Below, in pieces: positions 19,790 to 60,447 of a DNA stretch of 60,447 nt. The notes beneath the pieces are model-generated. The model worked only from the letters and a program-made list of their open reading frames with translations, did no database searches and had not been told where the DNA came from. The DNA is from a virus: positions 1 through 60,447 of the IMG/VR virus record IMGVR_UViG_3300031885_000015; one strand, 5' to 3'. The translations under genes were made by a program, and so were the position numbers. The stretch's first letter is position 1. Each line of letters starts with the position of its first letter.

Positions 19790-20488
19790 GTGTTATCTAA
19801 GGTGATTCCTCTTCCAAGCATGCCAGAACCGGGGGTACGCCTCTCTGTCGGTGCCAGTGAAATCGCCGAAACGTTGGCAGATACCCTGTTTCAATGTCTT
19901 AAGTGTTTTCCTCCCAGTAAGAGGCGGCAGGTTGCATTCTTGTGCATCGGTGCTGGCCGATCGATAGGAGATATACTAGGACCAACGGTAGGTTCACTGC
20001 TAGTTGACGCTGGGTGGAGAGTAGGCTGCGTACCAGGTGGAGCATTTAAGCGATGTGGCGTATCGCGGGTATCTGTGTATGGTACTCTAGAGCGCCCCGC
20101 ACATGCTGGAGGCATTCCCCTATCAGGAGGGTCTCGTCGGACAACTATCATTGCCATAGGTGCGTGTCCAGGGTCACTTGAGGATATAGGCTCGATTGAT
20201 ATTAGACTCGGCCCCATCCAACCTTGTATTGGCCTCGCCACACACGTGGATTCCTTCAGGGATCTCTTACCAGTAGGCGACGTGTCTGTGGCTGGAGCGA
20301 TCGGTGTGGGGAGCATAGATCAACTCCTTGGAGCTACAGCTACTCAGGTAGGGCCACGAGTGGTACTTAGGCTCGATGAGCTCAGCGTCCAACTTAGCGT
20401 AGTTATGAGTATAGCAGCTGCCATCAGCCGTGGAGTACTTGTAGCTTTGGGGGCACATCCAAGGAATCTGCACGGAGGGAGGAAATGA
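19790..20488 (+). CDS. YyaC-like sporulation protein (DUF1256)
   Basis: A 232-residue protein matching the YyaC family along its length: FLCIGAGRSIGDILGP, VYGTLERPAHA, TIIAIGACPGSLEDIG, GPIQP, LPVGDVSVAGAIGVGS, and a final LSVVMSIAAAISRGV. YyaC folds like the germination protease GPR and is expressed in sporulating Bacillota. Here two acidic positions that I recall as Asp in host YyaC (TDRSTGD and VDACLG) are Gly, so activity may be lost or changed. GTG start with AGGGAGG upstream. Its presence points to a spore-forming host and a link between phage and sporulation. Confidence 0.82.
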   Translation: MLSKVIPLPSMPEPGVRLSVGASEIAETLADTLFQCLKCFPPSKRRQVAFLCIGAGRSIGDILGPTVGSLLVDAGWRVGCVPGGAFKRCGVSRVSVYGTLERPAHAGGIPLSGGSRRTTIIAIGACPGSLEDIGSIDIRLGPIQPCIGLATHVDSFRDLLPVGDVSVAGAIGVGSIDQLLGATATQVGPRVVLRLDELSVQLSVVMSIAAAISRGVLVALGAHPRNLHGGRK

Positions 20489-26418: not shown

Positions 26419-26447
26419 TTGACAAAAGGGCGAAAATGTAGTATAAT
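26419..26447 (+). promoter_or_regulatory. strong promoter of the DNA metabolism operon
   Basis: TTGACA (26419-26424, consensus), 17 bp, TATAAT (26442-26447). The best -35/-10 pair in the window; it drives a structured leader of about 210 nt. Confidence 0.92.
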
Positions 26448-29542: not shown

Positions 29543-29555
29543 ATCTCCAAGAGAT

Positions 29556-29588
29556 GCGTGCGGCCTGGCCTCTAGTCAGGCCGCACGC
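29556..29588 (+). terminator. strong 12-bp hairpin, possible attenuator
   Basis: GCGTGCGGCCTG (29556-29567) pairs perfectly with CAGGCCGCACGC (29577-29588), loop 9 nt, no T run. It probably protects the upstream mRNA 3' end or slows transcription between recombination genes and the deazaguanine genes. Confidence 0.7.
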
Positions 29589-29610
29589 GCTCAGGAGGAG
29601 GGACAAGAAT

Positions 29611-29823
29611 GTGACTGGCGACGGATCTAACGAGATGTCAGTCAAGGCAGTTGCAGCAGAGCTAGGAGTAACCTACGTTACTGCCCTAAACTATGTGAAG
29701 CGTGGGCTACTGCAAGGAAGGAGAAAGGGAGGACGGTGGAAGATAGCACAGCAGGAGTTTGACAGATTCCAGCAGGAAGGGAATTATCCTAGAAGTGTGA
29801 CTGCCCAGAAGGAGGCTCCATAA
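29611..29823 (+). CDS. MerR/excisionase-type HTH protein
   Basis: A 70-residue protein. SVKAVAAELGVTYVTALNYVKRGLLQGRRKGGRWKIAQQEFDRF is a winged HTH_17-type domain. GTG 29611 has GGAGGAGGG upstream; an ATG two bases earlier is followed at once by a stop (ATGTGA). Likely a small regulator placed at the head of the deazaguanine cassette. Confidence 0.78.
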   Translation: MTGDGSNEMSVKAVAAELGVTYVTALNYVKRGLLQGRRKGGRWKIAQQEFDRFQQEGNYPRSVTAQKEAP

Positions 29824-29825
29824 TC

Positions 29826-30227
29826 TTGGGACCAGCAGATGGTGCTTGGGACATCGTTCAGCTAGGCTGTACCCTCACCTTCGATGCTGCTCACTACCTG
29901 CCTCGCCATGAGGGCAAGTGCAAGAGGCTACATGGGCACACCTACCAGGTGGAGGCTGTTGTGCAAGGGCACGTAGATCCCAATACTGGGATGGTAGTAG
30001 ATTTCAGCATTCTGGAGGGAGCTCTCCTTAGAGTCACCGAAAAGCTGGATCACAACTGTCTGAACGAGGTGCTGAGTTTTACTCCCACAGCGGAGAACAT
30101 TGCTGCATGGATATTTCTCCAGCTACAGGCAGAGCTAGGTTCAGCAGGTACTGGGGGACAGGAGCTAGCTCTCGTGTCTGTGACGGTACACGAAACCCCG
30201 ACCTCCTTTGCAAAGGTAGGTGCCTAG
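29826..30227 (+). CDS. queD: QueD, 6-carboxytetrahydropterin synthase
   Basis: A 133-residue T-fold enzyme. FDAAHYL gives the first zinc His, KCKRLHGHTYQVEA holds the catalytic Cys and the HGH zinc ligands, VVDFSILEGAL and LDHNCLNE carry the acidic partners, and PTAENIAAWI and VTVHET bind the pterin. It converts dihydroneopterin triphosphate to 6-carboxytetrahydropterin. TTG start with AAGGAGG 11 nt upstream. Directly followed by QueE. Confidence 0.93.
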   Translation: MGPADGAWDIVQLGCTLTFDAAHYLPRHEGKCKRLHGHTYQVEAVVQGHVDPNTGMVVDFSILEGALLRVTEKLDHNCLNEVLSFTPTAENIAAWIFLQLQAELGSAGTGGQELALVSVTVHETPTSFAKVGA

Positions 30228-30228
30228 G

Positions 30229-30999
30229 ATGTTGGAAGGCCCCTCAGGGAGTAGCTGCGTAAAAGATAAGAGGTACCCAATCAATGAGATCTTTGGGCCA
30301 ACTATCCAGGGAGAAGGACCGCTTCTCGGAACTCCCAGCGTATTTCTTCGTACCCAGGGCTGCGATAACAGCTGTGTGTGGTGTGATACACCTTACGCAC
30401 TGAAGGGTCCCTGCCGGCACATGACTGCTATGGAGATCCTGACAGAGCTCCAGCTCAAGGCAGAGGGATGCAAGTGGGTGACTATCACGGGAGGAAACCC
30501 ACTAATCCATGACCTCTTTGAGCTAATTAGACCACTCCATGGACTAGGTTTCCTCGTAGGCGTGGAGACTCAAGGTACAGTGTTCAGGGAGTGGGTTAGA
30601 GACTGCGACAGCATAGTTCTGTCTCCTAAGCCTCCTAGCTCAGGAAACGCTACTGATTCCTTTGTCGTGCAAAGGTTCGTCTCGCAGCTTCATCGGACAG
30701 GGTTATCTATCAAGCCTTGGTCCCTCAAGGTCGTGGTGTTCGACGACATCGACTACGCGTATGCCAAGCAACTCCACTCTCTCTTTCCCTTCAATCTACT
30801 GCATCTCCAGGTAGGGAACAATATACCTCTAGATGCAGTCATGGACTACCCTGCCTACATAAGCCGTTTACGGTGGCTTGCAGAGAAGGTTCTGGCTGAT
30901 CATCAGAAAGACGGTTTCTTCTGGCACGACGTAGATCAGGGTGTGAAGGTGCTACCTCAGCTGCACCTGCTCCTATACGGCCCTAAGAGAGGTGTATAG
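30229..30999 (+). CDS. queE: QueE, 7-carboxy-7-deazaguanine synthase (radical SAM)
   Basis: A 256-residue radical SAM enzyme: EIFGPTIQGEGPLLG opening, the [4Fe-4S] motif CDNSCVWCD (about residues 45-53, C-x3-C-x2-C), the ITGGNPL SAM-binding strand and KPP later. It contracts 6-carboxytetrahydropterin to 7-carboxy-7-deazaguanine (CDG). ATG 30229 has AGGTAGG upstream (GTG 30220 is an alternative), 1 nt after QueD. Confidence 0.93.
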   Translation: MLEGPSGSSCVKDKRYPINEIFGPTIQGEGPLLGTPSVFLRTQGCDNSCVWCDTPYALKGPCRHMTAMEILTELQLKAEGCKWVTITGGNPLIHDLFELIRPLHGLGFLVGVETQGTVFREWVRDCDSIVLSPKPPSSGNATDSFVVQRFVSQLHRTGLSIKPWSLKVVVFDDIDYAYAKQLHSLFPFNLLHLQVGNNIPLDAVMDYPAYISRLRWLAEKVLADHQKDGFFWHDVDQGVKVLPQLHLLLYGPKRGV

Positions 31000-31001
31000 C
31001 A

Positions 31002-31850
31002 GTGGCTCTTCTCGTAGAAGTGATGGGCCCGCCTGTGAGGGTAGAAGACTTGCCGGATGTTCAGAACATCGCTGGGGACTTTAAATTCCCTGTAAAGGCG
31101 GGTATTTCAGGGGTAGTGATGCCTATCCTGGTAAAGACGCAGCAAGGTACCCTTTTCAGCACGGTTGCTAAGGTAGACATGCACGTTCTGCTACCTAGCA
31201 GACTCCGGGGAGTAAACATGAGTAGGCTACCCATCATATTGAGTGAGATGAACCAGAATAGCTGGGTGGTCGATAACCTACGGGACACTCTGAGGAAGAT
31301 GCTGATAAGACTTGAGTCTACTACTGCACGGATGCAGCTTCGATTTCCCTACTTTTATAATAAGCAATCTCCGTGCAGTCCAAACGTAGGAGTAGCTCAT
31401 GCAGACATCATCTTCGACGCTAGTCTTGTAGATACTCAGCCAGAGAGCTACTGCTTTATACTCACAGTAAAGGTACCGGTTATCACGCTGTGCCCTTGCT
31501 CCAAGGAAATTAGCTCTAACTCGGCTCATAATCAGCGAGCTGTAGTGACCATAACGGTAGCCTACGACGAATTTGTCTGGATTGAGGAGCTCATTCGCTA
31601 CGCTGAGGTGAGTAGCAGTGCAGCACCCTTTCCTGTCCTTAAGAGATGGGACGAGAAACGAGTAACGGAGGACGCCTACAAGAACCCTAAGTTCACGGAG
31701 GACGTCGCTCGAGGAGTCGCGTCTCTGCTGACAGCAGATACGAGGATTGCTGGCTTTCACGTAACAGTACGGAGCCAGGAAAGTATCCATCAGTACGACG
31801 CTGTTGCGGAGGTGAGTGGTGGCCTCCGGAACCTATGGACGCGTAGCTAG
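31002..31850 (+). CDS. folE2: FolE2, type IB GTP cyclohydrolase
   Basis: A 282-residue protein matching GCYH-IB: LPDVQNIAG...VKAGISGV, SRLRGVNMSRL, the Glu-rich catalytic stretch, VPVITLCPCSKEIS with the catalytic Cys, and SSNSAHNQRAVVTI. It opens GTP to dihydroneopterin triphosphate, the first step towards 7-deazaguanines. Type IB enzymes work without strict zinc dependence. GTG start 2 nt after the QueE stop. Confidence 0.92.
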   Translation: MALLVEVMGPPVRVEDLPDVQNIAGDFKFPVKAGISGVVMPILVKTQQGTLFSTVAKVDMHVLLPSRLRGVNMSRLPIILSEMNQNSWVVDNLRDTLRKMLIRLESTTARMQLRFPYFYNKQSPCSPNVGVAHADIIFDASLVDTQPESYCFILTVKVPVITLCPCSKEISSNSAHNQRAVVTITVAYDEFVWIEELIRYAEVSSSAAPFPVLKRWDEKRVTEDAYKNPKFTEDVARGVASLLTADTRIAGFHVTVRSQESIHQYDAVAEVSGGLRNLWTRS

Positions 31851-31900
31851 TTAGCTTGGGAGAAGAGGGTGGGGTAGGTCACCCCAAGGAGGAGCTGGAC

Positions 31901-32332
31901 ATGAGGTGCCTCGTAGTTAGGACTCAGCTTGAGGGTGTTCACTGCTACATAGGTGCGCCCCCTGAGGTAGACTATCTTAGCCTTCCTCATCGACACGTGT
32001 TTCACATCGAAGTTGAGATCGAGGTATTCAAGGAGAACCGCGAACTGGAGCTCCTCTCAATAAAGGCAGATCTGACGCAGCACCTACGAGCTATCTTAGG
32101 TGGCCGATACCTACTTCCTAACGATCGGTCGAGCCATGCTCGAGTAAGATGTAAGTCGTGCTTGAGTAAGATGTTTTGCCTATCCCAAGATATTCACTCA
32201 AATAGCTGTGAGCACTTTGCCACCGCTATTCAGAGCTACCTTAAGATACGCTACCCATCTGAGCCTCCTCGCAGAGTAAGCGTGAGAGTGCTTGAGGATG
32301 GAGAAAACGGCTGTTACTTAAGAGAGGTGTAA
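31901..32332 (+). CDS. QueD-like T-fold protein, candidate deazaguanine tailoring enzyme
   Basis: A 143-residue protein; ATG with AAGGAGGAG upstream. It aligns in layout with QueD: PHRHVFHIEVEIEV in place of HGHTYQVEA, an acidic LSIKADLTQHL helix, SCEHFATAIQSYL in place of PTAENIAAWI, and VSVRVLEDGENG in place of VTVHET. QueD's catalytic Cys-x3-HGH is not kept, and a Cys cluster (CKSCLSKMFC) is added. I infer a T-fold paralogue with a new reaction, for example processing of CDG; no experiment is known to me for this protein. Confidence 0.6.
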   Translation: MRCLVVRTQLEGVHCYIGAPPEVDYLSLPHRHVFHIEVEIEVFKENRELELLSIKADLTQHLRAILGGRYLLPNDRSSHARVRCKSCLSKMFCLSQDIHSNSCEHFATAIQSYLKIRYPSEPPRRVSVRVLEDGENGCYLREV

Positions 32333-32335
32333 CCG

Positions 32336-32761
32336 ATGCCAGATGAACGTCACCAAAGCGAGCTAGGTTCAGGGACCTCCCAAGTTCTGAGTAGCCATTT
32401 ATCTCCCTATGCTGCTGATGTGTTGGCATTTGATCTGGAGCATGGACTACTATCAATCCATGAGCCGACGATTGAGAACATTAGCTACCTCCTCACTGCG
32501 ATGACAGGAGAGGTAGGGGAGCTAGCAAACGTCGTGAAGAAGATCTGGCGCGATGGAGAGAGCCCGAAGCTCTGGCGACAGTTTGATGAGGAGCTTGTCG
32601 ATATCCTGATCTACTACATTGAACTACTCGTAGCAGCTAGAGTGGACATAGACAAGGCATGGAGAGTCAAGGAGCAAGTCCTAAAGGAGCGGTGGCTGCA
32701 GCGAGGACCCTACAAGATTACCAGTCGGGGCTTGCAAACCTCGAGGGGGGAACTTCCATGA
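32336..32761 (+). CDS. MazG-like nucleotide pyrophosphohydrolase
   Basis: A 141-residue all-alpha protein: LLTAMTGEVGELANVVKKIWR (E-x2-E metal site) and FDEELVDILIYYIELLVAARVD (E-E-x2-D). It would hydrolyse non-canonical or host nucleoside triphosphates, or ppGpp, as suggested for other phage MazG proteins. Overlaps the kinase start by ATGA. Confidence 0.85.
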   Translation: MPDERHQSELGSGTSQVLSSHLSPYAADVLAFDLEHGLLSIHEPTIENISYLLTAMTGEVGELANVVKKIWRDGESPKLWRQFDEELVDILIYYIELLVAARVDIDKAWRVKEQVLKERWLQRGPYKITSRGLQTSRGELP

Positions 32762-33351
32762 TCGTGATTGTAGCAGGACCAGATCGAAGTGGCAAGACTA
32801 CCCTCATGCATATCCTAGGAGAGATATTTGGAGTTACTCCTCGTAAAGCTTGTCGCATCGCAGACGATGGAGAGACGATAGCTGCTGTGGCCACCTACCT
32901 TCGAGAAGAGACAGAGCTTTACAAGCCTCTTTATAGTGGCCTGCGTAAGCCTCTGCAGCCCCCTACCCTCTGGGACCGCTGGTGGTATCCTGACGACGTT
33001 ATATACCGAGCGGTGGCGGAGGGCAGAGAATCGATCCTGCTCCCGTACGCGCAGGTAATTGAGCAGCAGCTTAAGAGACTCCAAACTGTTTTTCTCCACG
33101 TGACAGCTAGCCAAGAAACGCTGGAGGCAAGGTATAAGCAGCTAGGGGAAGACGACTACCTTCCTAAGAGCAAGCTACCAGCGCTACTTGAGGCCTACGA
33201 GAGATTCTTCCTGGACACTAAGCTTCCTGCATATCGCATCTGCACCGATGATTCTATCTCCTCGAAGCTCACTACGGTGACACGCGCATGCCGTTACGTA
33301 CGGCAGGCTACGCTGCAGTTCTTGTCGGAGGAAGGAGTGGCCACTGAATGA
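32758..33351 (+). CDS. deoxynucleoside monophosphate kinase (thymidylate kinase-like)
   Basis: A 197-residue P-loop kinase: IVIVAGPDRSGKTTLM is Walker A, LWDRWWYPDD resembles the DR(Y/W) substrate-binding motif, and a LID-like arginine region follows. It raises dNMPs to dNDPs for replication. ATG 32758 with GAGGGGGG upstream, overlapping mazG; it overlaps the next gene by 4 nt. Confidence 0.8.
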   Translation: MIVIVAGPDRSGKTTLMHILGEIFGVTPRKACRIADDGETIAAVATYLREETELYKPLYSGLRKPLQPPTLWDRWWYPDDVIYRAVAEGRESILLPYAQVIEQQLKRLQTVFLHVTASQETLEARYKQLGEDDYLPKSKLPALLEAYERFFLDTKLPAYRICTDDSISSKLTTVTRACRYVRQATLQFLSEEGVATE

Positions 33352-34160
33352 AAATCGCTACGATCGTGCCGACTGCATACCTCTCTCTGACCAAGGAAGA
33401 CACGTACTTTATGGCCCTGGCTCACTTGGTGGGGAAGGACCAAGCATACACGGATTTCTTTAGGCGTCAGAGTGAAGCAGGAAAGTACGTGATCATGGAC
33501 AACGGGGCTGCTGAGGGGCAGCAGCAACCAATCGAGGTTCTACTAGAGCGAGCAGCCTTGATCAAGGCTACGGAGCTTATCCTGCCAGATGTGCTCCTAA
33601 ATTGCAGGGAGACCTTGAGGCTAGGGTACTCTGCGCTAGAGGAGATAGACAAGTGTGGTGTCCGAATCGCCCTAATGGCTGTTCCACAAGGAGAGTCCTT
33701 CAGCGAGTGGATTAGGTGTGCCCGAGGGATGACAAGCTGGCCCGTTCAAGTCATCGGCATATCGAAGTTTCTCACTAAGCAGCTAGGTTCAGGCGCCCGG
33801 CTACAAGCCTTGACGATGCTAGAGACTTGCTACGAGGAAAAGGATGTTCACCTACTTGGCTGCCACCAGGATCCTCGAGAAGTGCATACCATATCAGTGT
33901 TCTACCCTTCAGGTGGCCACGTCAACAAACTAAGGGTTCGAGGAGTTGACAGTGCTATCGCATATGCGTATGCAAGGGTAAACCAGCCACTAAGGCCTGC
34001 ACACCTCCGTCCCGAGATGGAGATAGATTTCTCAGACACCAAGACCGATTCCAAATACCTCAAGTGGCAGATCCGAGCTTGGAAGTACTACTGTCGGCAT
34101 GGAGAGGAGCCCCCTCAAGTACCGCTTGCCGTCTTTCCTCCCTTCTCTATTTTTAAGTAA
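33348..34160 (+). CDS. dpdA: DpdA-like guanine transglycosylase
   Basis: A 270-residue TIM-barrel protein related to tRNA-guanine transglycosylases: MDNGAAEG (about residues 49-56, candidate catalytic Asp), LILPDVLLN (second Asp), LMAVPQGES, VIGISKFLT, VHLLGCHQ and GVDSAIAYAYA. Phage DpdA proteins exchange guanine in DNA for 7-deazaguanines. Its place after FolE2/QueD/QueE fits that role, and the zinc site of tRNA enzymes is not obvious. Overlaps the kinase by ATGA. A tRNA substrate is a less likely alternative. Confidence 0.75.
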   Translation: MKIATIVPTAYLSLTKEDTYFMALAHLVGKDQAYTDFFRRQSEAGKYVIMDNGAAEGQQQPIEVLLERAALIKATELILPDVLLNCRETLRLGYSALEEIDKCGVRIALMAVPQGESFSEWIRCARGMTSWPVQVIGISKFLTKQLGSGARLQALTMLETCYEEKDVHLLGCHQDPREVHTISVFYPSGGHVNKLRVRGVDSAIAYAYARVNQPLRPAHLRPEMEIDFSDTKTDSKYLKWQIRAWKYYCRHGEEPPQVPLAVFPPFSIFK

Positions 34161-34201: not shown

Positions 34202-36637
34202 ATGGAGTGCTCCCAGTGTCCTTACGGAGGCTACCCTAGAATGCCTGCTCCAGTACCTCGGCCTGCTTCGTTTGCTATTGTAGGAGAGGCTCCAGGTACG
34301 CAGGAGCTAATTCGAAAAGAGGCCTTCGTCGGCATGAGCGGCCAGCTACTACGAAGGACCTTAGCAAAGGTAGGCATACCAGTAGAGGACGCCTACATAA
34401 CCAACAGTATGCTGTGCCGCCCGCCTGTAGGAAAGCCTATTAGCGTGGTTGCAGTAAGAAACTGCCAGCAGCGTGTACTAGAGGAGCTTCGGCAAGTAAA
34501 CCCAAGGGTTGTACTAGTAGTAGGAAATACTGCTCTTCGGAGTATAACCAACAACTTTAAGCTCAAGATTACTGACGAGCAGGGGAGACGCATCGAGTCT
34601 TCCTTGCTGACAGGTGTTTGCATCGTCGCAGCACTGCATCCAGCAAAGGTTCTTCGGGATTCAGGGGACTACCGAGCGTTTTACATAGCTATTGAGTACG
34701 CTGCCCAGATGTTACAGGGTGGTAGCCCCAAGGATCCTGGGGTTACGAAGTACAAGGTGGTCACCACGCTCGACGAGGCCGAGGAAGCTGTGGCATTCCT
34801 ACAGCAGTTTACTCTCGTGGCAGGAGACATAGAGGCTACGAGTCTGAATCCGTACAGAGGTAGAGTTCTTGTGTTGGGGGTTGCCTGGTCGAAAAACAGA
34901 GTCATAGTCTTCCCACGAGAGGTGCTGTCTGCCCTTAAACCTCTCTTTCTGGTACCTCACATGAAGTGGGCTTGGCATAACGGGAAGTTTGACACAGCAT
35001 TCCTTCGTAGAATCGGACTTGCTGCAGAAGTTAGTCATGACACGCTCCTCCTCTCATACTGCATTAATGAGAACCCTCCGCATAACTTGGAGTATCTAGC
35101 CTCTACCCTCCTAGGAGCTAGTGCCTACAAGGCCGACATTCAGAAACTAGCTCCCTCGAAAGCGAAGATGGGCTACGCGGAGGTCCCAAAGAAGGAGCTA
35201 TACGGCTACGTAGCTAAGGACGCAGACTACACTTACCAGCTGATGGAGGAACTCCTGCCTCAGGTAGAGGGAGATCCTAACCTTAAGAAGCTTTACTACG
35301 AGCTACTTATTCCTGCAACTCGTCTTCTGAGATTCGTGGAAAGGAAGGGCATCTACGTTAGCACCCAGGCCCTTGAAGTCCTTAGGGAGAAGTTCGAGCG
35401 GGAGAGCGAGGCTCTCCTCAACGAGATCGAGATAGTGACAGAGGGTATGTGGAGCGCTAAGGACTATAAGCTTCAAACAGGAGCGAAGTCCGCAGGTGCC
35501 AAATTCAAGCCAACCAGCTCGAAGCAGCTCGCTTGGCTCCTGTACGACAGACTGCGACTAAGACCAGCAAAGATGAGGGGACGAAGCACTGTAGAGGAGG
35601 TAATAGAGGAGCTACGAGATAGAGTACCAGTGGTGGACCTTACACTGAAACTTAGGTCCACTAAGAAGAGCCTTGCTACGTATGTGAAGGGTATACAAAA
35701 GCGACTGGATCTCGACAGCCGGGTGCACACCAGCTACCTCCTCCATGGTACCTCGACAGGTAGGCTCAGCTCTCGCGGCCCCAATGTTCAGAACATACCG
35801 CAGGATCCAACTATACGCGGTATCTTCCAGGCACCTCCAGGTCGTCTTCTGATAGAGGCAGACTACAAGGGAGCTGAGCTCCGTATGCTAGGCCACCTCA
35901 GTGGAGACGAGTTCTTCACTCAGGTGTTCGTTGAGGGACGTGACCTGCATGATGAGGTGGCAACCTTCCTCTTCGGCAAGGACTTCGGAGAGAAGGACCG
36001 TATGAAGGCCAAAACCCTCAACTTTGGTATACCCTATGGACGAGAGGCCTATTCCATAGCAATGGCCTTTGATGTGTCAATGCAGGAGGCACAGGAACTT
36101 ATCGACGGTTGGTTCCAACGTGCACCTCAAGCTGCAGCCTTTCTGCAGGAATGTGCAGCCTCCGTACGCCAGGGGCGTGTCCTTACAACTCCGTTCGGAC
36201 GGAAAAGGCGCTTTGGGCTCGTAACTCCGGTCAACCTTGAAGACCTCCAGAGGGAAGCCCGGAACTTTCCTATACAGTCGATGACTAGTGATATTGCGCT
36301 CGCATCCAGCATAAGGCTACGTGAGCTTCTCATTCCCTTCGATGCGAGTATAATCAACCTGGTACATGACAGTATCCTAATAGAGCTTCCCAGCGATCCA
36401 GAGGTAGCTCTGCAGGTAGCCCACATAGCCCGGAAGTGTATGATGGAAGTTCCTCATGAGAAGCTAGCCTCTGTGATAGTATTCGAGGTCGATATCAAAG
36501 TAGGTCAGAGGTGGGGGAGCCTTCAGAAGTTAGGCTCGGCTAAGGTAGCTGCTGGAGAAGAATCTGGAGAGCTGGAGGAGATACGCCGGATAGTGGAGAA
36601 GTGTGAGGAAGTACACTACGAGGAGGGATTAGTGTGA
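34202..36637 (+). CDS. polA: uracil-DNA glycosylase (family 4-like) fused to DNA polymerase I
   Basis: An 811-residue replicative polymerase. Residues 1-175 form a family 4-like uracil-DNA glycosylase: CSQC, VGEAPGTQELIRKEAFVGMSG, later Cys at LCRPP and RNCQQ (a likely 4Fe-4S site) and ALHPAKVLRD. A 3'-5' exonuclease follows (VAGDIEATSL about 210, WHNGKFDTAF, YVAKDADYTY). The A-family polymerase domain has motif A EADYKGAELR (about 553), motif B KTLNFGIPYG and motif C LVHDSILIE. No 5' nuclease. ATG after AGGAGGAG. Confidence 0.92.
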   Translation: MECSQCPYGGYPRMPAPVPRPASFAIVGEAPGTQELIRKEAFVGMSGQLLRRTLAKVGIPVEDAYITNSMLCRPPVGKPISVVAVRNCQQRVLEELRQVNPRVVLVVGNTALRSITNNFKLKITDEQGRRIESSLLTGVCIVAALHPAKVLRDSGDYRAFYIAIEYAAQMLQGGSPKDPGVTKYKVVTTLDEAEEAVAFLQQFTLVAGDIEATSLNPYRGRVLVLGVAWSKNRVIVFPREVLSALKPLFLVPHMKWAWHNGKFDTAFLRRIGLAAEVSHDTLLLSYCINENPPHNLEYLASTLLGASAYKADIQKLAPSKAKMGYAEVPKKELYGYVAKDADYTYQLMEELLPQVEGDPNLKKLYYELLIPATRLLRFVERKGIYVSTQALEVLREKFERESEALLNEIEIVTEGMWSAKDYKLQTGAKSAGAKFKPTSSKQLAWLLYDRLRLRPAKMRGRSTVEEVIEELRDRVPVVDLTLKLRSTKKSLATYVKGIQKRLDLDSRVHTSYLLHGTSTGRLSSRGPNVQNIPQDPTIRGIFQAPPGRLLIEADYKGAELRMLGHLSGDEFFTQVFVEGRDLHDEVATFLFGKDFGEKDRMKAKTLNFGIPYGREAYSIAMAFDVSMQEAQELIDGWFQRAPQAAAFLQECAASVRQGRVLTTPFGRKRRFGLVTPVNLEDLQREARNFPIQSMTSDIALASSIRLRELLIPFDASIINLVHDSILIELPSDPEVALQVAHIARKCMMEVPHEKLASVIVFEVDIKVGQRWGSLQKLGSAKVAAGEESGELEEIRRIVEKCEEVHYEEGLV

Positions 36638-36873
36638 AGCGCCTAAAGGAGCTCGCGCTCCTTAGCGTCGTTGTGGTAATCACAGTAGGCATCATGTCGG
36701 GTGGCGCCATAGCTGCTGCTCGGCTGATCCTGTGGGGCTGGTCCGGCGTCCTCCTGGCTGTGCTGGTCGTAATGAGCACTGGGGTCTTTACGGCGTTCGT
36801 CAAGGCTGCCCTCTGTAGGGTCTTCTTCTCTAGGAAGGAGGCTCCTCGGCGTGCCCTCCGAGGAGGTGAGTAG
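36634..36873 (+). CDS. small two-span membrane protein
   Basis: A 79-residue protein, GTG overlapping the polymerase stop. Two hydrophobic helices (about 8-30 and 34-60) and a basic tail (FFSRKEAPRRALRG). Function unknown. Confidence 0.6.
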   Translation: MKRLKELALLSVVVVITVGIMSGGAIAAARLILWGWSGVLLAVLVVMSTGVFTAFVKAALCRVFFSRKEAPRRALRGGE

Positions 36874-36874
36874 A

Positions 36875-37564
36875 GTGAAGATTGATATCCTAACGAAGGA
36901 CGAGATCCTTCTCCACAATCAGCAGCATGGGACACTTCGTTGGGTGCCTGTCGAGAGTGCACAGCTAGTCCCTTCAGAAGAGGTACATCACTCCCTTGCA
37001 GATGGTGGCTATGTGGGCTGCTCTCAGCTACATCCTGAAGTAATAATTGCCATTCGACGGCTTGGGGAGGTCATCGCGTACGTCTGTCGCTTCTGTAGGG
37101 AGGGGTGGACCCCAGGAGATCCATGTAACACTGGGTGGATGTGTCCTACGTGTCAGGCTACCTATAAGAAGGGTTCGAGAGCCATGAGAGTACTCGTATG
37201 TGGTAGTCGAACCTTCAACGGCAGTAGAAGGATAGGTATAGAGTTGTCGAAGCTTCCTCCTAACACAGTAATTATCCATGGAGGCTGCTCAGGAGCTGAT
37301 AGTATAGCTGGAGCATGGGCTCATCAGCTTGGGCTCGAGGCTATTGTTTTTCACCCAGGATGGGCTCAATATGGAGGAAAGGCAGGTCCTAAGAGAAATC
37401 GTCGTATGCTTGAAGAAGGCAGACCTGATCTGGTTCTAGCCTTCCTCGAAGGTACCACTAAGACCCCAGGAACTGCACACATGATAGACCTTGCAGTTCA
37501 AGCAGGTGTCAAGGTAACTGTGTTTGCAGGGCAGCCTGAGGCCAATAAAGGAGGTAGACCATGA
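36875..37564 (+). CDS. zinc-ribbon plus DUF2493 (SLOG-like) protein
   Basis: A 229-residue protein. The first 100 residues carry CRFC...CNTG-MCPTC, a zinc ribbon. The rest is a DUF2493/SLOG Rossmann domain: RVLVCGSRTF, IIHGGCSGADSIAGAWA, FHPGWAQYGGKAGPKRNRRML. SLOG domains bind nucleotides or nucleotide-derived signals. GTG after GAGGAGGTG; ends overlapping nrdJ by ATGA. A nucleotide-sensing or processing role beside the reductase is inference. Confidence 0.8.
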   Translation: MKIDILTKDEILLHNQQHGTLRWVPVESAQLVPSEEVHHSLADGGYVGCSQLHPEVIIAIRRLGEVIAYVCRFCREGWTPGDPCNTGWMCPTCQATYKKGSRAMRVLVCGSRTFNGSRRIGIELSKLPPNTVIIHGGCSGADSIAGAWAHQLGLEAIVFHPGWAQYGGKAGPKRNRRMLEEGRPDLVLAFLEGTTKTPGTAHMIDLAVQAGVKVTVFAGQPEANKGGRP

Positions 37565-58665: not shown

Positions 58666-60120
58666 TTATAGGTACCAGCTGGCACCGGTAGTACCAGTGT
58701 TGGAACTATCGAAGCCAACTGCATCATCAGCACTACCTGTACCAAGCGAGCTCCAGTACGACCCTTCTCCCATGACCTCCACCGGTAGGGCACCTGGAAT
58801 GGCACTCTTACGTAGTACCGAAAATCCTCCGCTAAGGGCATCCACCTGGTCATCATGAGATCCTCCGGGAAATAGCTCCAGCTCATCTAGGAACTCCAGA
58901 TTCCAGGGCCCTTGGACAAGCTTGACCCGGCCATGCTCCGCAGCTGAGCTGACAGGGTTGGCACGGATCACCTTCGACCCAGTCGAGCGGCTACCTCGGA
59001 ACGCATACCCTTTTAGTACCTCTCTGGCATAGTGATCGATAGTGTTGATACCGCTCGAGCCAGGTTCCTGCTCCATCCAGATACTGGTACCGTAGCCGTC
59101 CAAAGACGCTGTAAGCTTAACCAACGTCTCTACCTCTAGAGGAGTAGCTCTGATCCGACGAACGTCATGTACGCAGTAGATCCCCTTTGCTTCACTGAGC
59201 AAGACCCCGACAGTGTAGTCAGGGTCGTGGCCTCTCTTTGGTTCGCTAGCTGCGAGGTCCCAGAATCTAACTCTCCGACCTCCGAGAGCCCGTGGAGCCT
59301 CTGGAATGATCTCGAACCATGACCTCCGAAATAGCAATCCATCATTGCGAACGTCCCAGTTTCCATCTCTGAGCTGAGCCCTAGTGATAATGTCTAGCTC
59401 AGCCAGGCTCGCCTCATATGTCTCTGCATCTAGGTAGGGATTGTCCTCCAGCTTCGCTGGGATAAAGATCCGTCCCCTTCCACGACCCTCCGTTATGAAG
59501 CGTCGCTTCACCCATTCATGGCCTATACCACCAGGGTTACTCGCAGCCCTCATCCGAAGTGGTACGTTGGCACCATAGAGCCTTCTAAGCCGGCTGAACA
59601 TGTACCTATATGCAGTCTCCTCGAACTGAGTTAGCTCATCGAAGCCTATGTACTGAAACTCTGCGCTTTGGTAGCGATACTTGTCTGGCTCATGCTCTAG
59701 ATAGCCAAAAGTCACAGTAGCCCCACTAGGGAATGTGTAAGTCTTACTCTTCTCATTCCAGTGGACTTCCTCGTGAGCACTCAGCCACTCTCTAGCACGG
59801 TCCATTAGGGCACCTGGCAAGGTTAGGTCCGAGAATGTACGTCTGAACAGGATCGCAGAGTATCCTGGAACATCCACGTACTGAAGTGCTCCCATAAGAA
59901 GAGCCTCACTCTTCCCGCCCCCTGCTGCTCCGCCATACATTGCTTCTTGTACTAGCAGTAGCAAGAAGGCAGCCTGCTTTGGAGTAGGCTCGTGCGAGGC
60001 ATACTTGGTCGCCCGAGGAGTAGTCGCGACTTGAAGAGCCAAGAGATCCTGCTTGCTGAGTCCCAGCAGGCCCTCCTCTAGAGTACTTTCTGAAGTACTT
60101 TCTGACTCTCGTAGACTCAC
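58666..60120 (-). CDS. terL: large terminase subunit (TerL)
   Basis: A 484-residue packaging motor. Walker A GGAAGGGKS (63-71), Walker B YIGFDE (about 155), coupling SNPGG, and an RNase H-like nuclease (VRFWDLAASEPK, later MEQEP and SHDDQVDALS). Cuts and pumps DNA into proheads. GTG start after GGGAGGATAAC. A SES repeat opens the protein. Confidence 0.93.
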   Translation of the reverse strand: MSLRESESTSESTLEEGLLGLSKQDLLALQVATTPRATKYASHEPTPKQAAFLLLLVQEAMYGGAAGGGKSEALLMGALQYVDVPGYSAILFRRTFSDLTLPGALMDRAREWLSAHEEVHWNEKSKTYTFPSGATVTFGYLEHEPDKYRYQSAEFQYIGFDELTQFEETAYRYMFSRLRRLYGANVPLRMRAASNPGGIGHEWVKRRFITEGRGRGRIFIPAKLEDNPYLDAETYEASLAELDIITRAQLRDGNWDVRNDGLLFRRSWFEIIPEAPRALGGRRVRFWDLAASEPKRGHDPDYTVGVLLSEAKGIYCVHDVRRIRATPLEVETLVKLTASLDGYGTSIWMEQEPGSSGINTIDHYAREVLKGYAFRGSRSTGSKVIRANPVSSAAEHGRVKLVQGPWNLEFLDELELFPGGSHDDQVDALSGGFSVLRKSAIPGALPVEVMGEGSYWSSLGTGSADDAVGFDSSNTGTTGASWYL

Positions 60121-60150
60121 GACTGTTATCCTCCCTTAGCAGCCAGGGTC

Positions 60151-60447
60151 CTACTCTGCACCGGAGGCACCGGAGGTACCAGATAAGAGAGCCCTAGGCT
60201 GAAGTCTTTCTCGAATAGGTAGGGGCACATCTATGGACGGCCCAGCAGAGCTGGTTAGGCCAGGCAAGGCCCCAGATCGCGCAAGTATCTCTATGATCTC
60301 CCGTATCCTAGCAGTGCTCTGAGCCTCTCCAGTGTTCACAGTAGTTATCTGGACTACCGCACCAGCAGCCAAACCTTCACTCCCAGCAGGCTTGTCTGGA
60401 GGTAGCCCCCAGCTTAGTCTCTCGAGTCTCGTGGCAGTCTCTAGCAT
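60151..60447 (-). CDS. terS: small terminase subunit (TerS), C-terminal part
   Basis: This is the 3' part of the gene that starts at 775. Its first 127 bases duplicate the left end of the window. The C-terminal segment is rich in Ala, Gly and Pro and ends GTSGASGAE, a low-complexity tail plausible for contact with TerL. It ends 31 bp before the TerL start. Confidence 0.65.
   Translation of the reverse strand: MLETATRLERLSWGLPPDKPAGSEGLAAGAVVQITTVNTGEAQSTARIREIIEILARSGALPGLTSSAGPSIDVPLPIRERLQPRALLSGTSGASGAE
60321..60447. repeat. terminal direct repeat, right copy (circular overlap)
   Basis: Exact second copy of bases 1-127. Removing it gives a circle of 60,320 bp. A true physical end of 127 bp cannot be excluded from sequence alone, but the length equals a standard assembler k-mer. 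Confidence 0.95.

Follow-up and report, generated by a model that had tools for sequence, protein, structure and literature searches.

The cassette at 29826-34160 of the 60,447-nt tailed-phage contig IMGVR_UViG_3300031885_000015 (the whole contig is the stretch of DNA analysed here and is called the window) very probably makes a modified guanine that is swapped into the phage DNA to evade host defences, and this modified guanine is most likely plain 7-deazaguanine. The cassette encodes its own enzymes leading to 7-carboxy-7-deazaguanine (CDG), and QueC has been substituted by a T-fold protein acting on CDG rather than simply lost. For the whole pathway, in which the T-fold protein would decarboxylate CDG and DpdA would put the resulting 7-deazaguanine into DNA, we estimate a probability of about 0.6. 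A sequence-only reading had proposed a QueC-less 7-deazaguanine DNA-modification cassette with its own enzymes leading to CDG, which our analysis supports; its naming of CDG or 7-deazaguanine as the modification would, given the product predicted here, have been a good guess. The features are collected in Table 1.

Table 1. Genes and other features in and around the cassette, with the evidence for each assignment
Feature	Position	Strand	Evidence
Consensus sigma-70 promoter TTGACA-17-TATAAT, possibly of the stretch leading into the cassette	26419..26447	+	12/12 consensus bases
Small helix-turn-helix protein, possible regulator, just 5' of QueD	29554..29823	+	PF12728 HTH_17 E 2e-9
QueD, 6-carboxytetrahydropterin synthase	29826..30227	+	PF01242 E 1.5e-36; TIGR03367 104 bits, cut-off 89
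QueE, radical SAM CDG synthase	30220..30999	+	TIGR03365 223 bits, E 4e-66, cut-off 206
FolE2, type IB GTP cyclohydrolase	31002..31850	+	PF02649 E 3e-71; NF010200 over cut-off
QueD-like T-fold protein, probable DpdL-type CDG decarboxylase, QueC stand-in	31901..32332	+	Fold, residues, QueC exclusion
MazG-like nucleotide pyrophosphohydrolase	32336..32761	+	phrog_229 E 1.5e-5
P-loop (deoxy)nucleotide kinase-like protein	32758..33351	+	phrog_761 thymidylate kinase E 2e-8
Short DpdA, TGT-fold guanine transglycosylase (DpdA3-like)	33348..34160	+	TGT motif, profile, predicted structure
UDG-domain + family A DNA polymerase fusion	34202..36637	+	PF03167, PF01612, PF00476

The window encodes a recognisable terminase large subunit, portal, major head protein and tape measure, and a comparison of its middle 24 kb with 50,697 phage records gave no match at the DNA level. 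A terminase-small-subunit-like gene (2-787) runs off one contig end and the terminase large subunit (58669-60447) lies at the opposite end, which is the pattern expected of a near-complete circularly permuted genome. A DUF1256 (PF06866) protein at 19790-20485 is a possible hint to the host, as this YyaC-like family is known from spore-forming Firmicutes. In the cassette, QueD, QueE, FolE2 and a short transglycosylase of the DpdA/TGT fold all lie on the same strand, and between FolE2 and DpdA stand three genes left unnamed by the sequence-only reading, encoding the QueD-like T-fold protein, a MazG-like protein and a P-loop nucleotide kinase. Neighbouring frames overlap or stand 2-5 nt apart, with 4-nt overlaps at the MazG/kinase (32758) and kinase/DpdA (33348) junctions, and the earlier description of a single operon is thus a fair one. 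The promoter in Table 1 is suggestive only, since sites in the sigma-70 scan overall were no commoner than in shuffles. A reading of the cassette as a defence system was rejected, PADLOC giving weak P-loop matches only.

The adjacency of FolE2, QueD and QueE, claimed earlier, is borne out, with all three passing curated cut-offs and aligning with enzymes of solved structure, and their co-encoding is that of phage 7-deazaguanine cassettes. The QueD start codon, TTG at 29826, is preceded by the ribosome-binding site aaggagg; QueE matches the solved QueE 5tgs over its full length (E 7e-43), and FolE2 matches solved FolE2 relatives at E 6e-52. Such scores do not arise by chance. The chemistry by which FolE2, QueD and QueE take GTP to CDG is established enzymology, and the three proteins of the cassette would be expected to follow it.

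QueC is where the cassette departs from this familiar scheme. A PF06508 search that was positive in 12 of 14 control genomes found no QueC in the whole 60 kb record, confirming what had been noted before; this absence holds for an IMG/VR contig classed as linear, not strictly for a complete phage genome. QueF and UbiD are absent from the record as well. Lacking QueC, the record stands outside the preQ0-type subset of these cassettes. We then consider 167 loci, made up of the window, comparison phages and loci collected via DpdA or via the QueD-like protein. The QueD-like protein is present in 98 of them and QueC in 44, and no locus has both. For the loci found via DpdA, the counts are 16 with the QueD-like gene, 44 with QueC, none with both and 25 in which the stretch that was fetched contains neither (Fisher p 1.3e-6, which is only indicative because the loci are related to one another). 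The same holds for whole records: QueC over cut-off occurs in 0 of 43 that carry the QueD-like gene (phiST, MA9V-3, ACP17 and BUCT-ZZ01 included), with three sub-cut-off matches that each cover a fraction of the model, and the QueD-like protein occurs in 0 of 41 that carry QueC. Furthermore, contig G042 (L023) has neither gene near its cassette and QueC nowhere, and a QueD-like gene lies 9 kb upstream, which is a small out-of-sample success for the exclusivity.

The phylogeny of DpdA requires several exchanges of QueC and the QueD-like gene. In the clade that contains the DpdA of the window (support 98/99), the QueC-bearing locus L010 is sister to L008, which bears the QueD-like gene (96/98), and both retain MazG, kinase, DpdA and PolA. 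The lack of co-occurrence, combined with exchange on the DpdA tree, argues that QueC and the QueD-like gene are alternatives at one step, namely the fate of CDG, and the gene thus replaces QueC in CDG-making cassettes, as would be expected of DpdL. Exclusivity tells us that the QueD-like protein either takes over the CDG step or competes for it; it does not indicate the reaction. These data also bear on the earlier suggestion that the phage relies on host QueC, installing preQ0 or a derivative in its DNA. The contig does lack QueC, and a host contribution has been considered for phages with dpdA alone (PMC6884629), but preQ0-making phages with this module bring their own QueC (the 41 whole records) and here a dedicated, QueC-exclusive gene occupies QueC's place, which makes the use of host QueC very unlikely.

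What then is the protein that acts on CDG in QueC's stead? Its frame is open from 31856, and the ATG at 31901 is preceded by a strong AAGGAGG. Neither Pfam nor NCBIfam has a model matching it, and relatives are encoded by more than 500 viral contigs; in the complete phages phiST, ACP17 and BUCT-ZZ01, the gene adjoins FolE, QueD, QueE and DpdA. Structure prediction gives a beta-beta-alpha-alpha-beta-beta T-fold, for which every one of the 17 Foldseek matches at E <= 0.001 is a structure of the QueD/PTPS family. Kinship to QueD rests mainly on this predicted fold, the match between the profile and QueD being weak in sequence (E 0.012) and the comparison of the family profile with the single sequence of the window's own QueD too weak to count. 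Structure predictions were built from alignments without rows from named phage records. The cassette also encodes a normal QueD of its own, which makes the T-fold protein an additional, altered version of the QueD fold.

The nature of the alteration can be read from conserved residues. Relatives share the pattern GxH...HRHxF...RxxE...SCExxA...VxEDGE, and in the alignment to QueD, H29, H45 and H47 correspond to the zinc histidines and E147 to the pterin-binding Glu, while the catalytic Cys (CxxxHGH) and the Asp-His pair of QueD are absent from the relatives; the roles of all these residues in QueD are well established. The protein thus combines the T-fold, the three zinc histidines and the pterin-binding Glu of QueD with loss of its catalytic residues, and R62, E65, S117, C118, E119 and D148 are invariant polar residues that differ from QueD. 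We propose that the base would be held by the retained Glu147, with the carboxylate of CDG directed toward the zinc site, and that the carboxyl group of CDG would most likely be removed to give 7-deazaguanine. No ATP, SAM or flavin site is visible in the predicted fold of this small protein, which makes decarboxylation the simplest step. The same consideration speaks against other chemistry on CDG, such as amidation, reduction or a new C7 side chain leading to an undescribed 7-deazaguanine; Pfam and NCBIfam assign the protein no function and its invariant residues are unlike those of QueD, as such chemistry might lead one to expect, yet we give it little credence.

Two further occurrences of the family can be recorded. 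In Chryseobacterium phage MA9V-3 (L002:3647-4528), the QueD-like domain forms the C-terminal end of an ORF product that resembles a homing-endonuclease-type protein in its N-terminal part. The QueD-like protein is also found on archaea-binned contigs, which may be viral (L167, L168, L185 and L188; bins of Methanoperedenaceae, Methanosarcinales, Nitrosarchaeum and Heimdallarchaeota), mostly with QueD, QueE, FolE or DpdA near the gene and never with QueC in the fetched stretch.

The cassette can be compared with several known systems. Phages 9g, CAjan and Rosebush, like the record, co-encode a GTP cyclohydrolase, QueD, QueE and a TGT-superfamily DpdA, but their cassettes contain QueC or Gat-QueC where the record has the QueD-like T-fold protein, and FolE in place of FolE2 (PMC6884629). 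Hutinet et al. 2019 name only two cases without QueC, Mycobacterium phage Bipper and a single incomplete contig, and make no mention of FolE2 (PMC6884629). Cellulophaga phage phiST (KC821604), on the other hand, has the same genes as the record in nearly the same order, namely QueD, QueE, GTP cyclohydrolase, MazG, T-fold protein, kinase, short DpdA and DNA polymerase. It differs in having FolE rather than FolE2, MazG ahead of the T-fold gene, another kinase type and a PolIII-type polymerase where the record has PolA. In tubercidin synthesis by Streptomyces tubercidicus, the same first three steps lead to CDG, which then loses its carboxyl group instead of being converted to a nitrile, as proposed here; this precedent for decarboxylation of the CDG product involves an unrelated UbiD-family enzyme acting on the CDG nucleotide, whereas in the record, which lacks UbiD, the candidate is the T-fold protein (PMC6112128).

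A closer parallel may lie in phages whose DNA reportedly contains dDG and dCDG, as described in 2023 by Cui and colleagues in NAR. DpdL is said to have been predicted there as a CDG decarboxylase in phages with dDG, and a DpdA3 subfamily is said to have been defined that permits complete guanine replacement. The T-fold protein fits this description of DpdL, and the short transglycosylase may correspond to DpdA3. Identity with DpdL is probable; if it holds, the cassette is a further example of that known kind, to which it most likely belongs, and is set apart by its FolE2. The reported presence of dCDG in phages also lends some weight to a different role for the T-fold protein, which would bind CDG and serve DpdA as a carrier or specificity factor, with CDG itself inserted to give dCDG. 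Loss of the QueD catalytic residues with retention of the base-binding Glu and the zinc site would suit a carrier, as would the neighbouring positions of the DpdL-like and DpdA genes in many loci. However, the zinc histidines together with the new invariant polar residues resemble an active site, and we regard insertion of CDG as rather unlikely.

The enzyme that would carry out the insertion is the short DpdA, which the sequence-only reading had guessed to be DpdA-like, naming structure prediction as a check; both profile and structure comparisons now place it inside the TGT superfamily, so that the record has the transglycosylase typical of phage 7-deazaguanine cassettes. Pfam (PF01702 TGT included) and NCBIfam give no match to it, and as PF01702 misses a protein whose predicted structure is that of a TGT, absence from Pfam is no argument. 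In alignments of 81-86 relatives, Asp51, Asp81, His168, Gly171 and Asp201 show little or no variation, which is the TGT pattern, and the profile matches DpdA 7ui4, a DNA-guanine transglycosylase, at E 2.5e-5. The AlphaFold model (pLDDT 93.5) has as its best solved Foldseek matches the archaeosine TGT, queuine TGTs and DpdA (prob 1.00). The protein has 270 residues, fewer than TGT and fewer than the DpdA of phage 9g (317 residues); no close likeness to the 9g and ACP17 DpdA is detectable in profile against single-sequence comparisons, which are too weak to count. Fold and residues would allow the protein to exchange guanine for 7-deazaguanine with a TGT-type Asp nucleophile.

Whether the exchange takes place on DNA or on nucleotides is a question raised by the neighbouring genes. 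The MazG profile, built from 12 relatives, is nearest to dCTP pyrophosphatase (E 2e-12). The kinase frame was listed from 32659, with the ATG at 32758 overlapping the MazG stop, and its profile (9 relatives) is nearest to YorR, followed by deoxynucleoside, thymidylate and deoxyguanosine kinases. In ~40 loci, DpdA is followed within ~100 nt by the start of a family A polymerase. Together these proteins would probably adjust the nucleotide pool or couple the exchange to replication. A more radical possibility is that MazG, the kinase and the short DpdA make 7-deaza-dGTP for a coupled polymerase, with the base chemistry unchanged from the pathway proposed above. The profiles of both proteins would suit such a swap of the dGTP pool; the genes for MazG, kinase, DpdA and polymerase stand side by side and include the two 4-nt overlaps; the kinase abuts DpdA in most kinase-bearing loci; and the module, with the polymerase close behind, is retained through exchanges between QueC and the T-fold protein. 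A modified-dGTP route has also been put forward for Campylobacter phages (PMC6884629). Kinase and MazG are, however, present in only part of the DpdA loci, and the DpdA gene of phage 9g also adjoins clamp and polymerase genes. The known TGT-fold enzymes act on polynucleotides, and replacement through the pool is thus unlikely. If true, it would amount, with a T-fold-decarboxylated base, to whole-genome guanine substitution analogous to that of Z-DNA phages, and the short DpdA would be the first TGT-fold enzyme on a mononucleotide.

Several observations concern genes near DpdA and the polymerase. A polymerase relative in L006 (3801-6071) likewise stands behind DpdA and apparently has the same N-terminal UDG-superfamily extension, and in the window a SLOG-family (YAcAr) protein (36851-37564) lies between the polymerase and ribonucleotide reductase. 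In 14 loci (L025:7923-8354 and 13 others), a phosphoribosyltransferase-like gene occurs 3-6 genes upstream of DpdA, and the BUCT-ZZ01 cassette includes a gene annotated as xanthine-guanine phosphoribosyltransferase (L004:1465-1926); such genes may salvage released guanine or charge the deaza base. In one DpdA clade (e.g. L089, L103 and L114), DpdA is followed in 35 loci by a small gene that we take to be DUF3310-like, and in 31 by one presumably dCTP deaminase/dUTPase-like.

If the proposed pathway is right, much or all of the dG in the phage DNA would be 2'-deoxy-7-deazaguanosine, and restriction enzymes with G in their recognition sites would be blocked. The apparent loss of QueC thus becomes the testable claim that a single small protein takes QueC's place and sets which guanine analogue enters the phage DNA. 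Should this protein be a CDG decarboxylase, decarboxylation would take place on a QueD-type T-fold, in contrast to the UbiD-catalysed step of tubercidin synthesis. The conserved block of MazG, kinase, DpdA and polymerase makes the choice between exchange on DNA and on nucleotides directly testable. More generally, the QueD-like protein, though widespread on viral contigs and unannotated in both family databases, is a practical marker with which sequence data can be used to predict the base in the DNA.
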